DNA of 52,933 nucleotides from the NCBI GenBank assembly GCA_022508925.1, contig JAFLUF010000006.1, forward strand, positions 1 through 52,933, in the 5' to 3' direction. The DNA is from Oscillospiraceae bacterium. Lineage in GTDB: Bacteria; Bacillota; Clostridia; Oscillospirales; Ruminococcaceae. Shown one piece after another: positions 24,536 to 52,933 of this stretch; the stretch's first letter is position 1; each line of letters starts with the position of its first letter. The notes under the pieces are model-generated. The model did no database searches and was not told the origin of the DNA. It saw only the letters and a program-made list of their open reading frames with translations. The position numbers and the translations under genes are program-made.

Positions 24536-25710
24536 TATGTGTCACCTCCCATCGCTCTGCGAACCACAGCTCTTGCCTCTGCCATTTTTTGCTCCTCGGT
24601 TTTGACCTCGCTGTTACTGGTATTCTGAAAATCATCGGGCGCAACTGCTCCGTTGACCTCCTGCACTCCGGATGCACGATTATCCGAAGACACATCTCTC
24701 AAGAAGCTCTGTCCAAGTTTCGCGCTCTCTACCGCCGCCCTGTAAGCCATCTCCTCAGCTGTGCAGGGAGAGCCATACTTGGCATTTTTCACAGTGTCCG
24801 CGCTGAACTGATCCGCGATTTCGTCAATTTTTTGAAGTCTCTCGCGTTCGGCTGCGACTGCCTTCTTGATTGCCTCTCCGTCAACCTGCGTCGACGGAGT
24901 CTGTGCTGAATTGTTGTTATCCACGCTGTTACCTCCTTCAATGTTTGTTTCCGGTTTTATATTTGTAACGCCGTTGCCGCTGGTAGTCGGTTCGGGCAAT
25001 GTTACCGTCGGAATGTTCTCAGGGCATTTCGCGCCGAAAAGTGCGACTCTTCTGCCGCCGACATAAAGCGCGGTTCTATCTGCAGATGCCGCTATCTCCG
25101 GTGTATCATCGGATTCAAGCAGCTCGTCAACAAACCCCAAGTCAAGCGCTTCTTTTCCCGTCATATAAAGCTCCTCACTCATCATCGTGAGAAGCTCGTC
25201 TTCCGATTTCCCTGTTTTGCGCTTATACGTTGCGACTATTGCTTTGTCATACGCATCAGATGTTTCCGCGAGCTTGCGTAACTCGTCTGCGTTGTACCAA
25301 CCAAAGCAGAGAGTGAGAGACTTGTGGATCATAATAAGGCTTGATTCCGTTGCGCTGATTTTATGGGCAGCGCATATAATAAGCGATCCTGCTGACATAG
25401 CAACGCCATCTACAACACAAGTGATATGTGTACCCTTGCCGGAGAGATCTCTCAGTCTGTTATAGATTACCAGAGCCGCCGCTACTTCGCCTCCAAACGA
25501 ACTGATTCGAATATTGAGCATTTTCGGAATTCCGATTTTGTCAAGCTCCTTAATAAATTCATCCTGCGCAATGTAATTACCATCGTCTTTTTCTCCCGTC
25601 CACCAGTTGATAGGACGTTCGGAGACAATCTCACCGTAAAGATCTATCTCAACGGCATCGTCATTGGCTGCGATGTTGTAATATTTTTCATTGCTGTTAT
25701 TCTTCGGCAT
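24535..25710 (-). CDS. ClpP-type head maturation protease with C-terminal scaffold region
   Basis: 391 aa. Residues about 15-205 are a ClpP fold with SSFGGEVAAAL, catalytic Ser106 in DGVAMSAGSL and His129 in LIMIHKSL. A low-complexity linker (about 245-270) is followed by a helical scaffold-like C-terminus rich in Ala, Glu and Lys. In lambda the protease and scaffold share one gene in this way. The gene overlaps the portal stop. Confidence 0.9.
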   Translation of the reverse strand: MPKNNSNEKYYNIAANDDAVEIDLYGEIVSERPINWWTGEKDDGNYIAQDEFIKELDKIGIPKMLNIRISSFGGEVAAALVIYNRLRDLSGKGTHITCVVDGVAMSAGSLIICAAHKISATESSLIMIHKSLTLCFGWYNADELRKLAETSDAYDKAIVATYKRKTGKSEDELLTMMSEELYMTGKEALDLGFVDELLESDDTPEIAASADRTALYVGGRRVALFGAKCPENIPTVTLPEPTTSGNGVTNIKPETNIEGGNSVDNNNSAQTPSTQVDGEAIKKAVAAERERLQKIDEIADQFSADTVKNAKYGSPCTAEEMAYRAAVESAKLGQSFLRDVSSDNRASGVQEVNGAVAPDDFQNTSNSEVKTEEQKMAEARAVVRRAMGGDT

Positions 25711-27253
25711 TTTCTTCTTCCTCCTCTAAGTCGTTAAAAGTGATGTTGTTATTGTTCAAAACGCCTTGTGACAGGGCGTTTTCAGCGGAAAGTGCTTGTA
25801 TATTTTCTTCGTAATTTCCATTATAGAATTCACGGGTGATCTGCTCATTTGTTTTCCAGCCGTGACTCACAACGATTGCGTTGGCTTTTGCCTCCTTAAG
25901 CGGATCAAGGTGTGTCTGAGCAGGACCGTCCCACCGCGTTCCGCTCCACGCCGCTCTAATAAGGGGATCCGTGAAGAATCCCGGCGCGGATATTCTTCCC
26001 CGCGCAACAGCTTCCGCAAGCCATGCTTCATATATCGGCTTGCAGAAGTCGCTCACGAACCATGAACGGCGTTTCTTAAACATTTTCCACGCTTCCTCTA
26101 ACGCGCCCTTTGATGCAGAGTAAGAGCTGTTAAACTCCTTCATCAACACGTCGTACGGTATTTCCAACGCCGCACCTACTTGCTTTGCGATCGACTGAGT
26201 AAAGGCTTCAAAGCCAACCGTTGGAATGTTCGGATTTCCGAACGTTATACTTTCGCCAGGCTTGAGCTCGACAATCTCTCCCGGACCGAGCTGGATCGTT
26301 TCTCTGTCGCCATTTTCATCATTCTTCTCTTCATCCTCCTCACGGTCAAGAAACGGTATTCCCGTACTGTCCGCTTCTGAAGTAATAAATGCAGTAAAAA
26401 AGGATTGAACTACCGCCGCTACAAGCTCGCTCTCGGTATATCTGCGATGCTGAAGGAGGACTTCTATAACAGGCGCGAGGTAAGTTACACCACGATACTG
26501 GTCGGGACGTTCCGCGTTCATAACGTGAAGAATATTGGGAATTCCTGTTTTCTTACCAACGGCTTCTACGCGTGCCCATTTTGGCATTTTACCGGAATAG
26601 AATCCTGCATTCGGATGAACGTCACAAACGTGATACGCCACGACTCTGCCGTCCGAATTGACCTCAACCCCATCGTGGATATAATTGCCATTGTTTGAGT
26701 TTTGTCCCTCTGTGTAAGTGTAAATTCCGTTATTAACCTTGTTGGGCGTACATACTCTGTCGGCTTCAATCAACTGTATTCGCAAAGAATAAGGATTCAG
26801 CCGCGAGGTCGTTTTGATGCGCTTAAGTGCAGCAAATACATCCCCGCTCATCAGCCAAGATTTTAATGCCACCGACTGTAATTCGTAAAAATTATTCATT
26901 CCAAGGGCATCGCAATTATTTTTGTTTTCAGCCCAGAATGCAAATTCAGATTCAGTTTTGAATTGCCATTTTTTTGCTTCTTGCTCGGATAATCCGAGAA
27001 TTTGCGTGTTGATATGGCACTTCATTTTAAGTCCCGTGCCAACGATCGTAGTATCGTTGGTGTTTACGGCTGATGTTGCAAGCGGCGCCGCCATAAACAG
27101 CATTCGTCCGCGCTGTCGGAGTGTAGCGTTGTAAAAATCAATATCCTCAATAGGCGAGGACGAATGTGCTAAGAATTTTTTTAGCGCACGTTTACTGTAT
27201 GATGCTCCCGCATCACCATAGCCGCTCGCTATGACTTCTTTAGATTTTGGCAT
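25697..27253 (-). CDS. Portal protein (lambda gpB family)
   Basis: 518 aa; AAGGAG before the ATG. It has RGRMLFMAAPLATSAVNTNDTTIVG, the SGDVFAALKR and MNAERPDQYRGVTYLAPVIE blocks, and DVLMKEFNSSYSASKGALEEAW near the C-terminus. All are hallmarks of lambda-type portals. It forms the DNA entry ring and head-tail connector. Unlike in lambda, where the gpW gene is adjacent, a 0.9-kb insertion lies between the two here. Confidence 0.93.
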   Translation of the reverse strand: MPKSKEVIASGYGDAGASYSKRALKKFLAHSSSPIEDIDFYNATLRQRGRMLFMAAPLATSAVNTNDTTIVGTGLKMKCHINTQILGLSEQEAKKWQFKTESEFAFWAENKNNCDALGMNNFYELQSVALKSWLMSGDVFAALKRIKTTSRLNPYSLRIQLIEADRVCTPNKVNNGIYTYTEGQNSNNGNYIHDGVEVNSDGRVVAYHVCDVHPNAGFYSGKMPKWARVEAVGKKTGIPNILHVMNAERPDQYRGVTYLAPVIEVLLQHRRYTESELVAAVVQSFFTAFITSEADSTGIPFLDREEDEEKNDENGDRETIQLGPGEIVELKPGESITFGNPNIPTVGFEAFTQSIAKQVGAALEIPYDVLMKEFNSSYSASKGALEEAWKMFKKRRSWFVSDFCKPIYEAWLAEAVARGRISAPGFFTDPLIRAAWSGTRWDGPAQTHLDPLKEAKANAIVVSHGWKTNEQITREFYNGNYEENIQALSAENALSQGVLNNNNITFNDLEEEEENAEE

Positions 27254-27280: not shown

Positions 27281-27431
27281 ACGGGCGCGCCGATGAATCA
27301 GACTATATCACATTGTTTGGCTCTGTGTCCGCGCGCGCCCGTTTTGTGAGCAGCAAATACTGCCGAAAACACTCCTTGTACCGTAATGAGTGCTTTCGGC
27401 AATACGCATTTTTTTGCATTCGATTGCAAAA
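27281..27431 (-). other. Structured non-coding segment between VRR-NUC and portal genes
   Basis: A 10-bp perfect stem ACGGGCGCGC (27281-27290) with 27333-27342, a hairpin with arms GCCGAAAACACTC and GAGTGCTTTCGGC between about 27362 and 27401, and the 20-bp palindrome at 27412-27431. In the second hairpin the one imperfect position is G-U on the minus strand but A-C on the plus strand, which favours an RNA made with the late operon. No ORF or known RNA is recognised. Confidence 0.55.
27412..27431. repeat. 20-bp palindrome, copy A
   Basis: TTTTGCATTCGATTGCAAAA. It is identical to the copy at 40405-40424 and differs by one base from the perfect palindrome at 49257-49276. Confidence 0.6.
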
Positions 27432-27465
27432 TTTATTTTCTGAGCTTACGCTTTCCTCTAAGCAT

Positions 27466-27831
27466 TCACATTTTCCAATCAAGGTATCTGATTATATCCC
27501 GTTTCGCTTCTTCAAATCCGAAGCAAACACACACGGCATACCCCTGTTCATAAAGCTCTCTGAGCCATTTTCCCTGATTTTCGGACACACGTCCGTTGTG
27601 GGCTTTAAGCTCTATAAACAAGCCGTAAAAACCTCCGCGTGAGACAGGCAAAAACAGATCTGGAACACCGGGCTTGACTCCCATCCGTTTAAATCGCGCA
27701 GCTTCTCTCGCGTTTCGCTTACCGCCGTTCGGGACATGGAACAAGAGCGCGAGTTCGGGGTATTTACCGGATTGATACTGTGCCCATTCAAATAAAGCCA
27801 TCTGCTCTGAATCTTCTATGTGTTGTGACAT
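27466..27831 (-). CDS. VRR-NUC domain nuclease
   Basis: 121 aa from the ATG at 27831, with GGAGG five nt upstream. It is a PD-(D/E)XK-type nuclease: FHVPNGGKRN, GVKPGVPDLFLPV with the metal-binding Asp, FIELKAHNGRVSENQ with the ExK pair, and a terminal helix. Such proteins usually sit with phage replication genes and may act as junction resolvases. Here it lies within the head operon and is flanked on both sides by strongly folded non-coding DNA, which suggests an inserted module. Confidence 0.9.
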   Translation of the reverse strand: MSQHIEDSEQMALFEWAQYQSGKYPELALLFHVPNGGKRNAREAARFKRMGVKPGVPDLFLPVSRGGFYGLFIELKAHNGRVSENQGKWLRELYEQGYAVCVCFGFEEAKRDIIRYLDWKM

Positions 27832-27847
27832 AATATCCTCCAATATT

Positions 27848-28143
27848 GTTTTGCCTTTCCGTAACGGTTCGTAGCGGTATCCATAGCTTCGAACAGGCAG
27901 AAAGGAATAAGACCTGTCCAAGCTCTGCGAACCGCTACGGGAAAGCAAAACATCGGCTAATCAAAAACGCCCTGCAAAGGCGTGCCGCCTTTGGCAATTC
28001 GTTCCGCACGTGGAACATTATCAAAGGCAAGCGCTCGACACGAACGATGATACTTTTTTTATCACCCGTTCCTTAACACAAGGCGTTTATATTATTCTAA
28101 GCGGATACAAGGCAGGTCGGAGAAACACCTGCCATGCATCCGC
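27848..28143 (-). ncRNA. Candidate structured RNA upstream of the VRR-NUC gene
   Basis: This 338-bp gap between the gpW-like and VRR-NUC genes has no ORF but has many stems: 27848-27871 with 27928-27951 (about 22 pairs); 27885-27889 and 27893-27897 with 27913-27917 and 27920-27924; 27965-27971 with 28082-28088; 27975-27982 with 27986-27993; 28001-28005 with 28012-28016; 28042-28052 with 28060-28071; 28101-28117 with 28127-28143. At three imperfect positions the minus strand gives G-U where the plus strand gives A-C, so the functional molecule is probably the minus-strand RNA. It matches no RNA family that I can name. Confidence 0.6.
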
Positions 28144-28169
28144 GACAAACTCCGAAGAGTATTGTCCGA

Positions 28170-28436
28170 CTACTTGTCTGTCGGCAATATTGCGGTTATT
28201 TTCCGCGTTGCTCTGCCGTGCAATATAGCGTCATAGTATGCTTGCTTTTCAACGGCTGCTTCAAGCTCGTCAGACAGCGTGTCCAGATCTCTGTATGTCA
28301 TCTGCCTATCGCCTATAGTGTAGCTCTTAACACCGCCTGTCAGCGCTTCCTGCGCCTGTATAAGCTGATCTATGCGCTTAGTGTAATAGTCATACATTTT
28401 TTTTGCTGTTTCAGGTTTTATCATACTCATCACCAT
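28170..28436 (-). CDS. Head-tail connector, gpW-like
   Basis: 88 aa with MIKPETAKKMYDYYTKRIDQLIQAQEALTGGVKSYTIGDRQMTYRDLDTL. The pattern of a helix, a short loop with S-Y-x-I-G-x-R and a second helix is typical of the gpW family. It closes the head for tail attachment. It overlaps the end of terL, as gpW follows gpA in lambda. Confidence 0.85.
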   Translation of the reverse strand: MVMSMIKPETAKKMYDYYTKRIDQLIQAQEALTGGVKSYTIGDRQMTYRDLDTLSDELEAAVEKQAYYDAILHGRATRKITAILPTDK

Positions 28437-30349
28437 TCGTCAAATACATCGCCTAAACGTCGCCTTTTTGTCTGTTTCATCACTTTTTTCTGCGGTTTAT
28501 TGTTGATTTCCTCGTTTAACGCATCGGGTTTTGTGTTTCTTATTCGCTGCTCAATAGCGTCAAAATCGGGATCAAGCGCGGCTATCGCCGCCAAATTGTA
28601 ATTGCGTATATCAAAAGCCTCGTTTCGCTCGTGTCCGGGGATCTTCTCCCACACGAACTTACGTCTGGCTTTGTTGTAAGTAAGGTGTTCGGACATAAGC
28701 TGATTAAAGTATTGCTTACCGTAGTCATCGCGCCTCGGGAAGTGACAGTAATTCGCGCCCGGAGCTTTCACTCTCAGATTGTCAACTATTTTTTGCTTAC
28801 CTGCGTTAACTCCGATCTCGTACACCCATACCGCGCCGACAAACTTACCATCTATAACGATTTTCTGCTGCCGAGGCGGGGACGTGAATGCCACGTCATG
28901 TGACGAGCCTTTAATGGCAAAGACCTGTTTGCCCTGCCGCTCGCGACAGTGTTTCCGCACTTCTTGGGTGAAATGTCCTCCTTCGTCAATAAACGTGAGA
29001 GTAATAGGGAGTGATACACCGTTTTTAAATTGATATTTATGATTGATTACGTCATCAAGCCGCTCCCACACCTCATCAGTGTCCGGTCTGCCCATAATCA
29101 CTCCGTGGCGTATGCCCCACGTCTCGCCGAAATGCCCGTGTCCTACAACCTCATACTCGAGGCGGTTGTCCTGCGTATCCACGCCGCAGGTCAACACCAG
29201 AACGCCGTCAGGAACTTCCGCATCATATTCCTCTCGACGCGCCATAACGTCTTCTTCGGTGTCCATATCCCCGCGGTTCTCCCACAGTTCGCCGAATTGA
29301 GTGTTATAAACCACCTGTAATTTCGACGAGTCGTGTCCTGCTTGCAAAAACTGTAAGATTATATCTTTCCAAGTCGCCCACGGCGATACCCAAGCTGTAA
29401 GCCAAAAAGAACGAGTTTTATGTTCAGTCAGAGCATTGGGTGCACTCGCCTCCCATTTCGCCGGTTGGGATTTCATCGTGTGTTCGTCAGAAATTGCACC
29501 ACAAACAGAGCAGATATACCGAATGTTTTGGATCGAGAAAATTTTCTCGTTTCCGTTCTCGCTTTCTTCATGATCATATCTAATATTTTCAAAGCGGATT
29601 TCTTTATATTCCCCGCAGTGAGGACACTTCGTCAGCCACCGCTCCATTGTGCCTATTTGATAAGATTTTTCGATTGCACTTGCGCCTTTAATGGTAGGAG
29701 TTGAAACCTCCACCATTTTGCGATTGTAAAACGTGCGCAAGCGAGCCTTTGCCAGCTCCCAAGGATCACCCTCCGAGCCTGCCGACTTCGCCCAACGATC
29801 GCGCTCATCACCAAAAAGGTAGCGTATAGGCATTGAACTCAAATCATGAGGCACGTTCGAGCCTGTCATTACCAACACTCCACCCGGAAAAGCCTTTTGT
29901 CGCCTCGTGTTTGCGCCGTCGCGGGTTTTCGGGTCAGCAACTTTTCCTTTCAGACACGGAGTTTCGCGTATCATAGGCGCAATTCTCATTTCGGAATATC
30001 GCTTAACGTCATCAACTGTAGGCTGGACAAGCAAGATCGGACCGGGGTCTTGATCTATGCAGTATCCAATCATATTGTTCAGCAGCTCTGATTTGCCGAC
30101 TTGCGATGCGGCAACTACAACTATATGCTCGATCCGCGGATCGGTAAAGCTGTTGAGTATATCCAGCATATACGGCGTGCGTGATGTACGCCACTTGCCG
30201 ACTTCCGCAGATGATTCCGACGTTAAGCGCCGGTTTTTGTCTGCCCATTGTGCAACTGTAAGATTTTCGGGAGGTTTGATACTGCGGAGTACCTTCGCAA
30301 GACAATTATTGAGCTTATTTTCCCGCTGTTTTGCAGTCTCTCGCACCAT
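28430..30349 (-). CDS. terL: Terminase large subunit (GpA family)
   Basis: 639 aa from the ATG at 30349 (GGGGGTGGAAAC upstream). The frame upstream to 30442 only translates a leader hairpin. ATPase part: Walker A in VVAASQVGKSELLNN (about 90), Walker B-like YLFGDERDRW. The nuclease part begins near 380 with VLTCGVDTQDNRLEYEV and later LTFIDEGGHFTQEV. It cuts and pumps DNA into the prohead. With a Nu1-like small subunit this points to cos-type packaging. Confidence 0.93.
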   Translation of the reverse strand: MVRETAKQRENKLNNCLAKVLRSIKPPENLTVAQWADKNRRLTSESSAEVGKWRTSRTPYMLDILNSFTDPRIEHIVVVAASQVGKSELLNNMIGYCIDQDPGPILLVQPTVDDVKRYSEMRIAPMIRETPCLKGKVADPKTRDGANTRRQKAFPGGVLVMTGSNVPHDLSSMPIRYLFGDERDRWAKSAGSEGDPWELAKARLRTFYNRKMVEVSTPTIKGASAIEKSYQIGTMERWLTKCPHCGEYKEIRFENIRYDHEESENGNEKIFSIQNIRYICSVCGAISDEHTMKSQPAKWEASAPNALTEHKTRSFWLTAWVSPWATWKDIILQFLQAGHDSSKLQVVYNTQFGELWENRGDMDTEEDVMARREEYDAEVPDGVLVLTCGVDTQDNRLEYEVVGHGHFGETWGIRHGVIMGRPDTDEVWERLDDVINHKYQFKNGVSLPITLTFIDEGGHFTQEVRKHCRERQGKQVFAIKGSSHDVAFTSPPRQQKIVIDGKFVGAVWVYEIGVNAGKQKIVDNLRVKAPGANYCHFPRRDDYGKQYFNQLMSEHLTYNKARRKFVWEKIPGHERNEAFDIRNYNLAAIAALDPDFDAIEQRIRNTKPDALNEEINNKPQKKVMKQTKRRRLGDVFDEW

Positions 30350-52743: not shown

Positions 52744-52933
52744 GCCGACAACATATCGCTTACAACCACAAAGGTCTACAAAAAGTTTTTGAAGGATTCC
52801 AAAGGGGACTTTTTACAAAAAGTCCCCTTTGGTCGCGCCGAAGGCGCGAAACTGCGCCAGCTTAGCGCACCGGATAAAAAGCCTGCGGCTTTTTATCCAT
52901 GGGTGTGGGGAAAACAAGAGTTTTCCCCACATT
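52744..52933 (-). repeat. Dispersed multi-hairpin repeat, copy 2 (inverted)
   Basis: On the minus strand it reads like 203-388: a GGGGAAAAC hairpin, the GGATAAAAAGCC hairpin, a GCGCC-TTC-GGCGC element, an AAAGGGGACTTTTT / AAAAAGTCCCCTTT hairpin, and the GTTGTCGGC end. It reaches the window edge and may continue. It ends about 43 bp before the asnB start. Confidence 0.75.

Follow-up and report, generated by a model that had tools for sequence, protein, structure and literature searches.

The 296-nt stretch at 27848..28143 of the window (the whole 52,933-nt contig analysed here) is a composite of three elements that differ in origin. All three are described here on the minus strand: RNA-1 (28093..28168), a pair of adjacent hairpins; a copy of a host interspersed repeat (27977..28074), which lies in the loop of a terminator-like hairpin; and RNA-2 (27848..27951), a 104-nt long hairpin before a VRR-NUC nuclease gene. 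RNA-1 is a real phage RNA from a sense-strand family and, judging from Rfam 15 and the literature searches, it is uncatalogued. These searches, in which some candidates were judged by title and the start of the abstract, returned no description of it, and the available parts of the SPP1 genome paper (PMC6316719) describe no such RNA. As to mechanism, we infer that RNA-1 is most likely a cis-acting leader for translation of the portal gene, a reading to which we give about an even chance.

The stretch lies between the stop codon (28170) of a gpW-like head-tail adaptor gene (28170..28436, minus; phrog_118 head-tail adaptor, E 6.6e-9) and the ATG (27831) of the VRR-NUC gene (27466..27831, minus; phrog_824, and phrog_5702 Holliday junction resolvase), which in turn separates RNA-1 from the portal gene (25697..27253, minus; phrog_21 portal protein, E 1.1e-108). 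The intergenic span is 338 bases, as the preliminary description of this DNA had given it. The description gave it no ORF; the ORFs of at least 50 aa that touch it are all mechanical (76, 72, and 155 aa on the plus strand, and a TTG extension of VRR-NUC), and the 155-aa one is antisense to gpW and the terminase. Region 27830-28160 folds at -137.8 kcal/mol on the minus strand (z -9.2) and at -115.3 kcal/mol on the plus strand (z -6.5), and each value was equalled by 0 of 100 shuffles. The long stems that had been described are present in the minus-strand fold, at 28143-28101 and 27951-27848.

The impression that the stretch resembles no known RNA class holds as well, in that nothing in the window reached the gathering threshold of any Rfam 15 model. 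In 20 relatives, Rfam 15 found nothing beyond one tRNA (in L156), and a search of six loci by E-value gave no match. When 27400-28500 was searched by E-value, there were six weak matches, to microRNA types and similar, which we rejected (the best, a microRNA family, scored 27.2 bits against a gathering threshold of 95). A similarity search of 27600-28436 against phage records returned none.

Relatives of the gpW-like gene show where RNA-1 comes from. Among 36 inspected loci from IMG/VR, 20 have 93-154 nt between the gene and the next ORF as called mechanically, and of the 32 loci that were folded, most show two hairpins. The first has the form GGGUA..GCCC-loop-GGGC..UACC, and the second has a stem of some 16 pairs with a loop of the type AGUUU..GCUCCUUUCG at its tip. 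In the window, the corresponding hairpin A is at 28144..28166 (minus; GACAA-ACUC-uucg-GAGU-UUGUC, from the cmsearch alignment with the pairs read from the sequence). Hairpin B is at 28101..28143 (minus), with 17-nt arms that appear in the fold, among the inverted repeats, and in the cmsearch alignment. Its apical loop, GUUUCUCCG (28126-28118, minus), is a shortened family loop, and it is nearly identical to the loop in L230, the closest relative, which comes from an uncultured Clostridia MAG.

For the family we used a covariance model, R1, with a six-locus seed that did not include the window. Its structure was written by hand (alignment A2) and was used in place of the one from MAFFT/RNAalifold, which misaligned the long stem. 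The first search covered the window, 43 of 53 gpW loci, and 7 of 8 phage-record stretches, and 40 of the 50 loci matched at E <=0.001 (six of these are the seed). R1 matched the window at 28093-28168 on the minus strand (36.6 bits, E 3.6e-7) without having been trained on it. With two adjacent hairpins and a significant score, the window copy belongs to the family, and it begins directly after the gpW-like stop on the same strand (28168, with the stop ending at 28170). The covariance model from homologous prophages that the preliminary description had proposed as a check recovered RNA-1, and compensatory changes are abundant. The conserved family accounts for just 76 nt or so (28093-28168), which are partly outside the 296 nt once proposed to be a single RNA.

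A second set had 100 sources, 71 of which match R1 at E <=0.01. Counted by gpW locus, 66 of 95 match, or 58 of 87 when distinct by sequence. These locus matches are all on the gene strand and start no more than 70 nt from the matched gpW end, with the exception of L235 (about 560 nt on). R1 found no match in 29 of the 95 gpW loci, and when we ran a second model, R2 (trained with the window row included), over all 29, it added only L222. As most of these loci match neither model, RNA-1 is dispensable. In Roseburia phage Shimadzu, the gap is merely 13 nt and there is no RNA-1 match. In L228, RNA-1 is absent and a near-perfect hairpin of about 150 nt, after the gpW stop (1755), fills the gpW-portal gap; this is possibly another inserted element. 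We left weak matches out of the family (L195, L161:520, and those at 236 and 52814 of the window). The two in the window are near the contig ends and score 21.8 bits (236-319, plus) and 19.7 bits (52814-52899, minus) with R2.

Of 21 gpW loci in named genome records, 13 match R1 and L222 matches R2. The matching records include Anaeromassilibacillus senegalensis, Agathobaculum desmolans, a Gemmiger, and other Clostridia, and one is labelled Fusobacterium naviforme. Among 394 genomes of the window's order, a gpW search found the gene in six, including the window's own genome, and in the other five (L339-L343) the hairpin-B loop is visible by eye. The named phages with a match are the Faecalibacterium phages FP_Taranis and FP_Lagaffe and phage nd4; the gap of Pioen is nearly identical in sequence to that of Taranis.

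To score the structure, we used alignments that were fitted to it, so the numbers lean towards it, and the margin is nonetheless very large: standard pairs make up 95.0% of the cells in 57 distinct rows (70.4% when shuffled and 38-48% when slid), and 299 cells changed on both sides, versus 72 when shuffled. All 24 pairs of RNA-1 have such double-sided changes. Values were similar (95.3% paired; 237 double changes versus 57) in a previous set of 42 distinct rows, which overlaps with this one. The same 57 rows contain 121 G-U pairs and 26 A-C mismatches, and this large excess indicates a real RNA on the sense strand. R2 agrees: the same stretch of the window scores 47.4 bits on the minus strand and 6.1 bits on the plus strand. 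The preliminary description had argued for selection on the minus strand from stems in which G-U was the only imperfection, and the family data put this argument in a more formal way and bear it out more strongly than the window sequence does by itself. Its conclusion and the G-U excess stand, and the detail needs correction, as stem 28143-28101 also has one U-U.

We also searched IMG/VR without reference to genes, using the loop pattern alone (GGAGTTTN{1,6}GCTCCTTTCG). This gave 31 stretches, and 22 of them score at least 63 bits with R2. The gpW searches had likewise reached the contigs of half of the 22, and the other 11 are new. All 11 new loci have a gpW-like ORF upstream, and 8 of the 11 have a portal-like ORF downstream; for the exceptions, L307 ends at the RNA and L323 and L332 have no downstream ORF listed. 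Six stretches (L320, L328, L330, L314, L315, and L335) have the loop in a stem in other phage contexts and score 19-34 bits, and R2 did not match L311, L317, or L326. A second, overlapping pattern gave 51 stretches with 21 new loci. Eight are on gpW contigs (seven known ones plus L360, a new one in which gpW-like and portal-like ORFs adjoin the RNA), and 13, with stem scores of 7-10, were judged to be due to chance. Overall, we set aside 16 loci as chance (L311, L326, L317, L344, L346-L352, L354, L356-L358, and L363). Their stem scores are 6-10 except for L311 (16) and L326 (17), which approach that of a true gpW locus, L353 (just 18), so this cutoff is soft. Of the six stretches in other phage contexts, L320 (at 1889-1963), L314, L315, and L335 have a GGAGUUU..GCUCCUUUCG loop in a stem without a gpW-like gene, and in L320 this hairpin is right after a portal gene (phrog_776).

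In most relatives examined, RNA-1 fills the gap between the gpW-like adaptor and portal genes of Clostridia phages. Hairpin A starts soon after the adaptor stop, and hairpin B is directly next. The distance from the end of hairpin B to the portal Shine-Dalgarno has a median of 16 nt (quartiles 14-17, range 6-36) for 50 of 56 RNAs; the other six had no Shine-Dalgarno by pattern and were left out of the count. This tight spacing may merely reflect a compact gap, as hairpin A also starts close behind gpW. In L235, an insert parts the RNA from gpW, and the RNA remains beside the portal gene. A match at L209:5038 (24.9 bits, not counted as a member) is at a contig end, about 2.4 kb behind gpW and after five ORFs. 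In the window and L230, VRR-NUC parts RNA-1 from the portal gene, so the spacing of about 16 nt is absent from the window, and the hairpin-B loop is shortened in both. Together, these patterns suggest a closer tie of the RNA to the portal start than to gpW, and for this reason we prefer cis control of portal translation.

Specifically, RNA-1 would be a cis-acting leader within the polycistronic late mRNA and would set portal translation relative to that of the neighboring genes. Hairpin A would be opened by the ribosome that terminates on gpW, and the conserved loop of hairpin B would be a recognition element, which might pair with the Shine-Dalgarno or be bound by a protein. The window breaks with this arrangement: VRR-NUC, with its own long hairpin, comes before the portal gene, the loop lacks UUUC, and a terminator-like hairpin that carries the repeat is downstream.

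A typical family loop is UUU..GCUCCUUUC, an 8-nt match to the 3' tail of a Clostridia 16S rRNA. Across the 57 rows, the hairpin-B loop contains CUCCUUUC in 41 and CUCC in 50; the loop in the window retains UUU and CUCC and lacks UUUC and CUCCUUUC. When we compared the pairing of each loop with its portal Shine-Dalgarno to that of shuffled loops, the energies were -10.6 and -9.7 kcal/mol, respectively, and the real loop was better in 35 of 50 cases. As this is barely above the shuffled loops, it argues only faintly for a mechanism that relies on loop/Shine-Dalgarno pairing. Such pairing also leaves UUUC unexplained, as a T mostly precedes the portal Shine-Dalgarno (30 of 50).

The resemblance to 16S rRNA could instead point to action in trans. 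In this scenario, a released hairpin-B RNA would present its anti-Shine-Dalgarno loop to host or phage mRNAs, as has been proposed for the streptococcal csRNAs of the CiaRH regulon, which, according to PMC3091779, have anti-Shine-Dalgarno sequences in unpaired regions beside stem-loops, as RNA-1 does. Of seven genomes searched for the 16S tail GGATCACCTCCTTTCTA, which shares eight bases of CUCCUUUC, one has it (G434, to which L211 belongs); it was not found in the window's own genome, whose assembly may lack it. However, csRNAs are separate small RNAs from CiaRH-regulated promoters (PMC3091779) and RNA-1 is intercistronic, with a position fixed before the portal gene and no sign of a separate transcript. 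A scan of 27400-28600 found no sigma-70 promoter-like sites (1.8 were expected by chance). We consider action in trans to be highly unlikely.

Another alternative is that RNA-1 acts on transcription, either as a put-like antiterminator in the nascent RNA or as a leaky intrinsic terminator or attenuator that tunes read-through into the head genes. In PMC9378689, the putRNAs of phage HK022 (putL and putR) are about 70 nt with two stem-loops, and RNA-1 is likewise a cis RNA of a phage with two adjacent stem-loops in 70-80 nt. At least five of the eight bases after hairpin B are T in 43 of 56 RNAs, and the terminator-like hairpin that follows RNA-1 in L230 and in the window would need read-through. 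However, a loop of about 15 nt or longer, as hairpin B has in most members, is unusual for a terminator, and this one is conserved. The put elements are located downstream of early promoters and act on RNA polymerase, whereas RNA-1 is in the middle of a late operon, has another conserved loop, and in most relatives precedes the portal Shine-Dalgarno by about 16 nt. An effect on transcription would also leave this spacing unexplained, and we view it as unlikely. Similarly, RNA-1 might be an element for mRNA processing or stability, with a nuclease cut that would give the terminase-gpW and portal-capsid segments different lifetimes. The intercistronic position and the strong paired stems would suit such a role, which does not account for the conserved loop or for the spacing to the Shine-Dalgarno, and we rate it as quite unlikely.

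A bolder version of the preferred reading, control of portal translation in cis, is that a widespread phage RNA family sets the dose of portal protein through a hairpin loop imitating the 16S rRNA 3' tail, that this loop-in-hairpin has been reused in unrelated operons and, separately, that a mobile repeat of the host targets terminator loops and entered one behind RNA-1. We offer this combination tentatively and think that it is probably not correct as a whole. We know of no good explanation for how the portal is held to one ring per capsid amid hundreds of capsid subunits. With a conserved RNA immediately ahead of the portal start in named Faecalibacterium phages, the hypothesis of cis control becomes directly testable. 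Structured RNAs beside phage head genes have precedents in Mu-gpT-DE and other phage RNA motifs from comparative genomics. RNA-1 differs from motifs of this type in that no Rfam 15 model matches it.

The middle of the gap has another origin. A BLAST comparison of the gap to its own genome, in which 40 of 43 candidates were scored, gave at least 30 matches, one of them the gap itself. The 29 others all fall inside positions 86-224 of the 346-nt query, which implies that a host interspersed repeat occupies the middle and that the two ends are something else. The repeat is present in at least 11 of 61 genomes searched, including the window's own (judging from the best 11 or fewer candidates per genome), and these all belong to one genus. 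An alignment of 54 distinct full copies, taken from 64 fetched loci of this genome and its relatives, defines an element of about 94 nt, AAGG...CCTT, which contains two hairpins. The flanks vary between copies and yet tend towards mutual complementarity: for 42 distinct flank pairs, the mean helix score is 18.0, versus 10.75 (sd 0.48, maximum 12.2) for 200 permutations. Of these pairs, 24 score at least 18, 17 score 13 or less (about the level of the control), and 30 have TTTT in the right flank. The copy in the window (27977..28074, minus; 98 nt) is an AAGG...CCTT element of this kind between complementary flanks.

These flanks are the arms of the outer terminator-like hairpin, namely the 5' arm AAACGCCTTG at 28079..28088 (minus; inverted repeat I7) and the 3' arm CAGGGCG followed by T5 at 27963..27974 (minus). 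A terminator scan calls a terminator-like site at 27983-27967; its two sites per 1.2 kb, versus 1.4 expected, are no excess. L230 has the same order as the window (gpW, RNA-1, a small terminator-like hairpin, a long hairpin, VRR-NUC, and portal), and there the small hairpin is intact, AAAATGCC..GGCATTTTTG. The alignment of the two loci matches on both flanks of one window-only block, which is the host repeat in the loop of the small hairpin, and we therefore read them as a filled and an empty site. Although one minimum-energy fold covers all 296 nt, this comparison and the matches within the own genome led us to reject the idea that they form a single RNA: the middle is a host repeat that is missing from the equivalent place in L230, and RNA-1 stands alone in relatives whose gap measures about 100 nt. 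We give the single-RNA reading next to no probability. The preliminary description had listed two outcomes that would speak against an RNA. The first, a lack of compensatory changes in homologues, is contradicted by the changes found; the second, a match to a repeat with no RNA role, is half borne out, as the middle 98 nt or so are a genome-wide interspersed repeat.

Empty sites are also found elsewhere. We searched 43 genomes of the genus for the joined flanks of six insertions, and among the best nine or fewer candidates per genome, uninterrupted joined flanks were present for at least two of the six sites: that of L027 in seven genomes (confirmed by alignment) and that of L007 in two. Judging from sequence comparison, presence and absence between species at the same terminator-like hairpin fits insertion, and precise loss may be an alternative origin of the empty sites.

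At the other end of the gap, RNA-2 is seen in the fold and in the comparison with L230. Of the 32 pairs in their consensus fold, 23 are the same, five have one-sided changes, and four have two-sided changes; as two sequences are too few, we do not call it a family. In the 43 genomes of the genus, the 3' hairpin of the gap matches only itself, and the 5' hairpin has, besides its own place, two weak matches (E 0.002 and 0.008). By eye, the RNA-2 loop, UCUUAUUCCUUUC (27912-27900, minus), and its L230 counterpart, CUUUUAUCCUUUC, resemble the family loop. This likeness finds no support from the model (5.6 bits in the window and 8.8 bits in L230), and we rejected RNA-2 as a second member of the family. 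Of 80 VRR-NUC relatives, we checked 19 for their upstream neighbor, and none follow a gpW-like gene.

The host repeat is similar to REP/REPIN, BOX, RUP, and MITE elements in being short, multicopy, intergenic, and hairpin-forming, with some tandem copies. It differs from them in that it is often in the loops of terminator-like hairpins and in that the Y1 transposase (PF01797) that marks the REPIN/RAYT class gave 0 matches in the own genome (an assembly that is 89.85% complete; the control search matched in 5 of 14 genomes). REPs are described as 20-40 bp long and tagged with GTAG/CGTC in PMC3733652, and the main text of that paper does not contain the word “terminator.” If the repeat does choose terminator loops, then it would be a useful case of structure-guided insertion. 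Across L002-L065 and the window (27977-28074), the repeat is often in such loops and is sometimes in tandem. It also holds a TGTTCCACGTGcGGAACG palindrome (28000-28017 of the window), which varies between copies and which may resemble the parS sites of ParB.
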